Source of the DNA: Elusimicrobiota bacterium
GTDB lineage: Bacteria; Elusimicrobiota; Elusimicrobia; UBA1565; UBA9628
Direction: 5' to 3'
Assembly (NCBI GenBank): GCA_003151975.1
Contig: PLZD01000035.1
Coordinates: forward strand, 1-48,288
DNA: 48,288 nt
A program made the translations under genes and the position numbers. The notes under the pieces were generated by a model. That model was not told where the DNA came from and made no database searches. It saw only the letters and a program-made list of their open reading frames with translations. Position 1 is the stretch's first letter. Each line of letters opens with the position of its first letter. Of this stretch, positions 18,201 to 19,902 are shown piece by piece.

Positions 18201-18340
18201 CCCGCGTCGGCTGGTTCCCACGTCGGCCTTTGCGGGTACGTTTCCCCAGGAACGAACTTTGCTGATCTCTCCAGAAAGAAGCCAGGAGAGGCGGCTAACG
18301 CTAGCCGTTTCCCCTGGCGAATCCGGGATCAGGCCCGGAT
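18201..18340 (-). other. Stacked hairpins in the leader of the HNH gene, candidate structured RNA
   Basis: Three separate stems: CCCGC/GCGGG (18201-18205 with 18232-18236); GCCAGG/CCTGGC (18281-18286 with 18313-18318) enclosing CGGCTA/TAGCCG (18292-18297 with 18302-18307); and ATCCGGG/CCCGGAT (18321-18327 with 18334-18340). It precedes ATG 18179. Identity unknown. The remaining 18341-18438 has no gene; it holds a palindromic ATTATAAT (18383-18390) and repeated AAGGCCTAG elements (18418-18426, 18442-18450). Confidence 0.45.
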
Positions 18341-18438
18341 GTGGATGCTCCCCGACCAATCTCAGGGATTACAGGTATCTTGATTATAATCCAAAGGGCC
18401 CAAACCGCCAGGACCTTAAGGCCTAGACCGCAATAGGA

Positions 18439-19107
18439 CTAAAGGCCTAGAGCGCGAATCGCGTCGTATTGATGAACCGCGACGCCGGGGGCGCCTTCAA
18501 GCGCCGCGCGGACCATCGCCTTGGCGACGACGGCGGCGGGGATGGACCGGTAGACGCGGGCGGGGCCGAGGAAGAGCGGGTCGAGAAAAGGAATGATCTT
18601 CAGAAAAATTTTCTCCGCGGGACGCTTCTCGTCGCGATCTCCGAGCAGAAAGGAAGGCCGGAAGATGTGCACGGCTTCGAAAGGAAGCGCTGATGCCGCC
18701 TCCTCCAATTCGCCTTTGAGGCGCGTGTAGAAGACCGACGACTTGGCGTCGGCGCCGACCGAGGTGACCAGGAGCAGCCGTGAAGCCCCGCGCTCCAGCG
18801 CCGCGCGGGCGACGGCCAGCGGGATGTCGAAATCGACGCGCCTGTAGTCCTGTCTCGAAGGCGTCCTGGCGGTGGTGGTGCCAAGGCACGAGAATACGTC
18901 GTCGCAGCGCAGGCCCGAGTAGGACTCCGGTCGCGAGAAGTCGACGACGACCTCGCGCAGCTTGTCGTGCGAGAGCCCCAAAGGCCGGCGGACCAGCGCG
19001 ATGACGCCCCCGTAGCGGTCTTCCTTTAATAGCTCGTCAAGGCAAAGGCCGCCGATGAGGCCGGTGGCGCCGAGCAAGAGGGCCGTTCGTCTTCTTTCGC
19101 TTGACAT
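18439..19107 (-). CDS. NAD(P)-binding Rossmann protein, HTATIP2/YwnB-like
   Basis: 222 residues from ATG 19107. N-terminal LLLGATGLIGGLCLDELL is a Rossmann GxxGxxG dinucleotide loop; VFSCLGTTTARTPSRQDYRRVDFD matches atypical SDR proteins of the TIP30/HTATIP2 type. LLLVTSVGADAKSSVFYTRLKGELE carries a Tyr-x3-Lys (YTRLK), the SDR catalytic pair in position. Substrate unknown, likely an NADP(H)-dependent reductase or an NmrA-like regulator. Its start codon overlaps the -35 box of the divergent promoter at 19101. Confidence 0.85.
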   Translation of the reverse strand: MSSERRRTALLLGATGLIGGLCLDELLKEDRYGGVIALVRRPLGLSHDKLREVVVDFSRPESYSGLRCDDVFSCLGTTTARTPSRQDYRRVDFDIPLAVARAALERGASRLLLVTSVGADAKSSVFYTRLKGELEEAASALPFEAVHIFRPSFLLGDRDEKRPAEKIFLKIIPFLDPLFLGPARVYRSIPAAVVAKAMVRAALEGAPGVAVHQYDAIRALGL

Positions 19108-19129
19108 CGGGTCGGGGACATGCTATAAT
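19101..19129 (+). promoter_or_regulatory. Perfect consensus sigma70 promoter
   Basis: TTGACA (19101-19106), 17-nt spacer, TATAAT (19124-19129): both hexamers and the spacing equal the consensus. Predicted +1 near 19136. The -35 overlaps the start of the opposite gene, so the two transcription units may interfere. Confidence 0.88.
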
Positions 19130-19135
19130 ATTTCT

Positions 19136-19208
19136 GTAGTACACGATTCGAACCTGTAACCAGAAATGTCAGGACCAGCCCGCCAAGAAAAGGCGGGTTT
19201 TGTGTTTT
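19136..19208 (+). ncRNA. Putative short structured RNA or attenuator leader
   Basis: Between the consensus promoter and the ORF at 19219 lies about 70 nt ending in an intrinsic terminator. Within it TACA/TGTA (19140-19143 with 19155-19158) forms a hairpin, flanked in the DNA by TTTCTG/CAGAAA (19131-19136 with 19161-19166). Either an sRNA of about 70 nt or a leader that can be antiterminated to express the tiny Cys protein and cupin. No family recognised. Confidence 0.55.
19179..19208 (+). terminator. Intrinsic terminator before the small Cys-rich gene
   Basis: CCCGCC (19179-19184), 7-nt loop, GGCGGG (19192-19197), then TTTTGTGTTTT (19198-19208). The 6-bp all-GC stem and U-rich tract fit a factor-independent terminator lying upstream, not downstream, of the ORF at 19219. 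Confidence 0.8.
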
Positions 19209-19218
19209 AGGGGTTCCA

Positions 19219-19407
19219 ATGCCCGCCACGAAGAAGAAATCCCAGAGTTCCGGCGGAACCTACGTCTACGACGCCGAGCTCTGCAAGGTCGTCAAGGTGT
19301 CCGATCGGGTCCCGAAGGTCGCCTCGAAGTCCTCTCGCCGCGCGCCCTCCGTGGGACCTTGCGGCCGGTCGGTCTGCGGCGGCGGACGGTGCGCGGGGGG
19401 AAATTAG
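19219..19407 (+). CDS. Small Cys/Gly-rich protein, 62 residues
   Basis: Starts at ATG 19219. The first half is Lys/Ser-rich then TYVYDAELCKVVKVSDRVPKV; the C-terminal tail holds CGRSVCGGGRC, with a Cys pattern that could coordinate a metal. No family is recognised with certainty. There is no clear Shine-Dalgarno (the preceding sequence is TTTTAGGGGTTCC; AGGGG is a weak candidate). It ends 3 nt before the cupin start, so the two form an operon downstream of the attenuator. Confidence 0.6.
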   Translation: MPATKKKSQSSGGTYVYDAELCKVVKVSDRVPKVASKSSRRAPSVGPCGRSVCGGGRCAGGN

Positions 19408-19410
19408 CTC

Positions 19411-19902
19411 GTGGGAAAATACGACCCCGCCGCCCAAGACCCACATCCCGCGACCGAAAAGCGCGATGCCTGCATCGCCAACGTCGATGAGATAACCCCC
19501 GAATCCTACGATCGTCCGGGCATCGCGGGAAAATCTTGGGACCTCGGCGCCGCGACCGGCGCGCGCCTCATCGGCATCGATGTGACGGAAATCCCTCCGG
19601 GAAAGAACTCGTCGCACTTTCACTCGCACAGCCACAAGGAAGAATTCTTCTATGTCCTTTCGGGCCGCTGCCGGCTTCGCCTGGGCGACAAGACGCACGA
19701 ACTTCGTCCCGGCGACGCGGTCAGCCGGCCCGCGGGCACGGGCGTGGGCCATCAATTCACGAATCCTTACGAGGAGCCCTGCCGCGTCATGATGCTCGGC
19801 GTTCAGGCGGGGCAAGGCGTCGAGGATACCGTGGAGTGGCCCGAGCTCGGCCGGGCGTTCACCATGGACGCCGAAGGCAACCGCAAGATCGTTAAGCGCT
19901 AG
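19411..19902 (+). CDS. Cupin-domain protein
   Basis: 163 residues from GTG 19411, 3 nt after the preceding stop. Cupin motif 1 is HFHSHSHKEEFFYVLSGRCRLRLG, with the His-x-His-x4-Glu metal ligands; motif 2 includes PGDAVSRPAGTGVGHQF with the second His. Small single-domain cupins bind Fe, Mn or Zn and act as isomerases, dioxygenases or sensors; substrate unknown. Soluble. Its stop codon (19900-19902) shares CTAG with the stop of the convergent RND gene (19899-19901). Confidence 0.87.
   Translation: MGKYDPAAQDPHPATEKRDACIANVDEITPESYDRPGIAGKSWDLGAATGARLIGIDVTEIPPGKNSSHFHSHSHKEEFFYVLSGRCRLRLGDKTHELRPGDAVSRPAGTGVGHQFTNPYEEPCRVMMLGVQAGQGVEDTVEWPELGRAFTMDAEGNRKIVKR

Follow-up and report, generated by a model that had tools for sequence, protein, structure and literature searches.

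A candidate multicopy small RNA of Elusimicrobiota with copies behind the initiator tRNA gene

Described systems and the Elusimicrobiota locus

Transcription attenuators and riboswitches with terminators are built from a promoter, a short structured leader and a terminator, and the locus described here, which lies in a window (the whole stretch of DNA analyzed) of 48,288 nt from an Elusimicrobiota bacterium, has these same parts and a gene close downstream. Unlike such leaders, the RNA predicted from this locus has no consistent downstream gene, and behind many of its copies no gene runs in the same direction. In CsrB/RsmX-Z protein sponges, structured RNAs present in several copies, a loop motif is repeated; the Elusimicrobiota RNA is likewise multicopy and structured, but it lacks repeated GGA loops, and CsrA is absent from nearly all genomes of the class.

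Multicopy sibling sRNAs include the LhrC family of Listeria and NgncR_162/163 of Neisseria, the latter of which bind Hfq (PMC9973317). These families and the Elusimicrobiota RNA have in common several near-identical short RNAs per genome, shared conserved segments, and some copies with a different promoter architecture. The Elusimicrobiota RNA differs from the Neisseria siblings in belonging to a class without Hfq, and from both families in having no Rfam match and in the linkage of some copies to tRNA-fMet. The 3′ETS-leuZ RNA of E. coli is a sponge RNA derived from a tRNA trailer (Lalaouna et al., 2015, as discussed in PMC6191717). The Elusimicrobiota RNA, at its tRNA site, resembles it in being part of a tRNA 3′ trailer that ends at an intrinsic terminator. 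Here, however, the trailer is that of the initiator tRNA-fMet, several families share it, and copies of it have left the tRNA and stand under promoters of their own.

A full-text literature search returned no dedicated small-RNA study for the phylum Elusimicrobiota. A multicopy RNA kept across several families would offer a handle on post-transcriptional control in a class that lacks Hfq, and its home behind the initiator tRNA, together with movement alongside integrative elements that target tRNA-fMet, would illustrate one route from a tRNA trailer to an independent RNA gene. We put the probability at roughly 0.75 that the feature is a free-standing, Hfq-independent, multicopy sibling small RNA of about 65-75 nt that acts in trans via a conserved loop. 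Within that explanation, the best reading of the sequence comparisons is an undescribed, multicopy family confined to part of the Elusimicrobiota.

Promoter, conserved core and terminator

The initial annotation described a perfect promoter, about 70 nt with nested pairing, and an intrinsic terminator ahead of a small Cys-rich gene; the promoter, the length and the terminator stand, and the nested pairs do not. Both promoter boxes (TTGACA 19101-19106 and TATAAT 19124-19129, separated by 17 nt) match the consensus in full. A scan of the whole 48-kb window found no other perfect promoter, and this was also the sole promoter-like site within the 3.5 kb scanned. Comparison of copies indicates that the leader following the predicted start is not kept in relatives, and that conservation begins with the core, a 62-nt unit that recurs as 90 distinct copies in related genomes, placing the feature beyond chance. 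Own promoter and intrinsic terminator frame a predicted short RNA with compensatory changes in both of its hairpins, as in a free-standing sRNA gene.

Table 1. Positions of the predicted RNA, its parts and the neighboring genes in the window.
Feature	Position	Strand	Evidence
Sigma-70 promoter, TTGACA-17-TATAAT with extended TG	19101-19129	+	12/12 consensus matches
Predicted start of the transcript, with a short leader that is not conserved and contains TACA	19136-19146	+	Start placed from the -10 element
Predicted small-RNA core, consensus UUCGAACCYGnnACnAGnAAUGUCRGGACC, then terminator and UUYGUGUUU	19147-19208	+	Conserved copies; without Rfam match
Tentative long-range pairing P0, CGAA 19149-19152 with UUUG 19199-19202 in the tail	19149-19202	+	Pairing possible in 98.9% of cells
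Hairpin P1, CCUG 19153-19156 with CAGG 19170-19173, 13-nt loop	19153-19173	+	99.7% of cells paired
Hairpin P2, intrinsic terminator stem AGCCCGCC/GGCGGGUU	19177-19199	+	99.5% paired; five pairs with two-sided changes
Conserved 3′ tail UUGUGUUUU past the terminator stem	19200-19208	+	G and GUGUUU kept in nearly all copies
Cys-rich 62-aa gene, outside the RNA family	19219-19407	+	Relatives carry the gene without the RNA; no Pfam match
Cupin gene, outside the RNA family	19411-19902	+	Pfam Cupin_2, E 1e-19

The core contains two hairpins. At one pair of P1 (CCYG/CRGG) the partners change together, being U-A in 56 and C-G in 34 of the 90 copies, and the loop combines the conserved ACnAGnAAU with interspersed variable positions. 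The terminator, whose stem arms lie at 19177-19184 and 19192-19199 and are followed by a U-rich tail, is confirmed, has two-sided changes at five of its pairs and is present in the aligned copies. Covariation of P1 and P2 exceeds that of each of the 500 shuffles and of every slid control in the 90-copy alignment, which was fitted to the structure of the covariance model and so favors the pair counts. The tail UUYGUGUUU is under tighter constraint across the 90 copies than a plain U-tract requires. A long-range pairing P0 between CGAA and UUYG is a tentative possibility: its counts include G-U 47, G-C 41 and A-U 1, two-sided changes number zero among the 90 copies, and folding does not favor it (mean probability 0.08).

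Two further candidates were set aside. An inner extension of P1 (A-U and C-G closing a GNAA tetraloop) is broken at two of its pairs in 9 and 18 of the 90 copies without compensation. The stretch ACGAGA..GGACC of the core, which we took to resemble the 23S sarcin-ricin loop, is variable at one key position, and the likeness is regarded as coincidence.

The pairings originally proposed do not survive this comparison. The TTTCTG of the TTTCTG/CAGAAA pair (19131-19136) lies before the predicted start and is therefore unable to pair in the RNA. The TACA/TGTA pair (19140-19143 with 19155-19158) falls partly in the non-conserved leader, with its 3′ half over variable positions, and the covariance check once suggested for these pairs picks out P1 instead, a hairpin that had been missed. 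Folding agrees, in that the complete RNA is more stable than its shuffles (z -2.3) and the segment without the terminator folds no better than shuffles (z +0.7), leaving the earlier pairings without energetic support.

Distribution and genomic settings

The small-RNA core has no match at or above gathering score in Rfam 15. A DNA search of 37 genomes, the window's own and its relatives, delimited the conserved unit as 19147-19208 and found matches in many genomes, several in each. With a covariance model, 64 of 341 genomes of the phylum carry the RNA at E <= 1e-6, in one to five copies; 35 of these belong to the window's own family, 10 to two other families of the order, one to family f8 and 18 to family f10. 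Copies within a genome are near-identical and sit at different loci, as expected of multicopy sibling sRNAs, and the window's own genome has two. Only matches at E <= 1e-6 were counted, because several of the weak matches (25-31 bits) inspected in f9 and other families overlap tRNA genes, where the T-arm TTCGAACC is joined by a terminator. Some genomes of family f1 lack the RNA in this search, so it is not essential across that family, and its absence from some relatives shows that the RNA is not universal. Most of the genomes are MAGs, and gene calls in the relatives come from a simple script.

A pattern scan of 84,980 species recovered Elusimicrobia MAGs, one chance match and one contig labeled Bacteroidetes. 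The chance match, in Novosphingobium (L084), has neither terminator nor tail. The match in 'Bacteroidetes WAS_Bin_9' (L109) is a full copy 3′ of a tRNA remnant, on a contig that is probably mis-binned. The 90 distinct copies gathered are essentially all from Elusimicrobiota, and the RNA was not found in phage, plasmid and viral-contig collections.

By upstream setting, the 90 copies divide into 29 directly preceded by tRNA-fMet sequence with its anticodon region, 8 preceded by a shorter 3′ remnant of a tRNA, and 53 preceded by neither. The window copy is not in a tRNA trailer, the position that defines a tRNA 3′ETS and is occupied by the 29. In family f10 the copy lies at most about 20 nt from the end of tRNA-fMet in most carrier genomes, which suggests the initiator tRNA trailer as the likely older site of the RNA. 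The 53 copies without preceding tRNA sequence mostly have strong promoters of their own: 24 of 48 are preceded by a sigma-70-like site that scores at least 9/12, compared with 1.4 expected from shuffles, and in many the -10 element lies exactly 12 nt 5′ of the core.

The tRNA-fMet gene is also an integration site in many Elusimicrobiota genomes. A tyrosine recombinase gene (PF00589) lies immediately 3′ of it in many relatives and likewise in the window's genome (G000:C40), and where this is so the RNA is found behind a tRNA 3′ fragment (G000:C61) or tens of kilobases away (G222). G192 has two near-identical copies separated by 16 kb; the complete tRNA precedes the first, and CCCCCGCAACCA precedes the second. 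This arrangement suggests that integrative elements enter between tRNA-fMet and the RNA, and that they sometimes duplicate the RNA. At L185 (G000:C40:66320-66396) and at L163-L192, the tRNA-fMet is directly followed by a gene for a tyrosine recombinase of about 322 aa, and a trailer hairpin, a terminator and a leader are conserved with it.

These settings bear on an unlikely alternative, that the unit is a module of DNA or a terminator only, the usual terminator and flanking sequence of tRNA-fMet, moved around by integrative elements for which the tRNA is the attachment site, with no function as RNA. The many copies behind tRNA-fMet or its 3′ fragments, the recombinase genes directly after it and the duplicated copy of G192 would all fit such a module. 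It does not explain the 53 copies that lack a preceding tRNA sequence, most of which have strong promoters of their own, many at a fixed distance from the core. Nor does it account for the P1 pairing and loop residues, whose conservation upstream of the terminator is stricter than termination would require.

A cis-acting attenuator, as in the initial proposal that the terminator controls the Cys-rich and cupin genes in possible response to metal, is comparably improbable. Under it, the 70-nt leader would sense a signal such as metal and open the terminator, letting transcription proceed into the two genes. In both the window and G002 the Cys-rich gene follows directly after the terminator, too closely for another promoter to fit between, and a same-direction gene lies immediately 3′ of some other copies; the next gene starts right after the terminator in the window, G002, G007, G009 and G015. 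However, the genes behind the copies are unrelated, of differing kinds and often in the opposite direction (14 same and 14 opposite for tRNA-linked copies; 32 same and 19 opposite, a mild same-direction excess, for own-promoter copies), and the consistent downstream gene or pathway of a cis attenuator or riboswitch was not seen among the copies compared. Among the copies examined, those of the window and G002 alone are followed by the Cys-rich gene; relatives hold this gene elsewhere, where the RNA is absent, and other copies of the RNA have no Cys-rich gene. No conserved antiterminator pairing was found, the tentative CGAA/UUYG aside, and nothing points to metal. Varied downstream genes and adjacency to the Cys-rich gene in two genomes leave a general attenuator role unsupported. 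Because the Cys-rich gene starts about 11 nt past the U-tract, local read-through control of it is a possibility in the window and G002. The free-standing small RNA that the initial annotation had offered as its other reading is the one favored by copies standing before unrelated genes in either direction. With one to five copies per genome, often behind the initiator tRNA gene, the comparisons make it very probable that the window feature is a stand-alone RNA rather than a switch controlling the adjoining Cys-rich gene.

The product of 19219-19407 belongs to a small protein family (GTYVYD-ELGKVVKVS-RVPKVAS...GPCGRSxCxGGxC) that is conserved in Elusimicrobiota and has no Pfam match. A subtype of the RNA (L078, L082, L111, L123 and L134), in which the core starts A-[AC]-CGAACCCGAGACCAG, has in all five copies a common upstream palindrome, TGACG-N4-CGTCA (also as TGACGCG-nn-CGwCA), at a fixed distance about 30 nt 5′ of a weak -10, a position that would correspond to a class II activator site. 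In four of these five copies the gene that follows is the same one, of about 327 aa and unknown family, and a CspA gene lies near some of them.

Proposed mode of action and possible partners

The free-standing sibling RNA probably originated as the 3′ trailer of initiator tRNA-fMet; further copies would have acquired strong promoters, and some would have been duplicated, or parted from the tRNA, through integrative elements targeting its 3′ end. It would be transcribed from its own promoter or cut out of the tRNA-fMet precursor, would end at its own terminator, and would fold into P1, with its ACnAGnAAU loop, followed by the terminator hairpin. We infer action in trans through the loop and its flanks, which would contact a protein or pair with a target RNA, the copies being additive in dose. 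Long antisense matches to the RNA in its own genome are limited to the RNA copies themselves.

The usual partners do not account for the family, since they are mostly or wholly missing. Hfq was found in 0 of 235 genomes of the class Elusimicrobia, with control genomes positive; CsrA is missing in 231 of the 235, the window's own included, and found in four; and ProQ occurs in 1 of 37 genomes searched. Titration of CsrA, in the manner of CsrB/RsmZ, would suit several copies per genome with one nearly invariant loop and a logic of dosage, but it is very improbable given how rarely CsrA occurs and that each RNA has a single GGA, on the 3′ arm of P1 and outside the loop. Titration of a protein other than CsrA is possible and forms part of the main explanation.

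A bolder and rather doubtful extension of this explanation is that the RNA is a global, Hfq-independent regulator in Elusimicrobiota, coupled to the initiator tRNA, with the ribosome or some conserved protein as its binding partner and its own amount tied to that of tRNA-fMet. Extra copies would then let other signals raise the dose, for example through the palindrome-bearing promoters, and the RNA would be both spread and displaced by integrative elements that have tRNA-fMet as their attachment site.

The RNA was also considered as a stand-in for SRP or 6S RNA. Rfam models for small and large bacterial SRP RNA and for 6S RNA had no match in 18 relatives, absences that are unsafe because the large-SRP model is also silent in B. 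subtilis; the idea was rejected, the RNA itself being missing in some relatives. A small-peptide gene (AUGUCAGGACC..., encoding M-S-G-P-...), whose frame in the window runs to a stop in the tail, can be dismissed almost entirely, as indels of one or two nucleotides break the sole shared frame, early TAA or TGA stops occur and the AUG is lost in several copies.

Elsewhere in the window, a 199-aa ORF (18179-17580, minus strand), without Pfam match, resembles by eye a secreted HNH-type nuclease, and 5′ of it lies a 2dG-II (2′-deoxyguanosine) riboswitch (RF03165, 64.5 bits; 18309-18379, minus strand).
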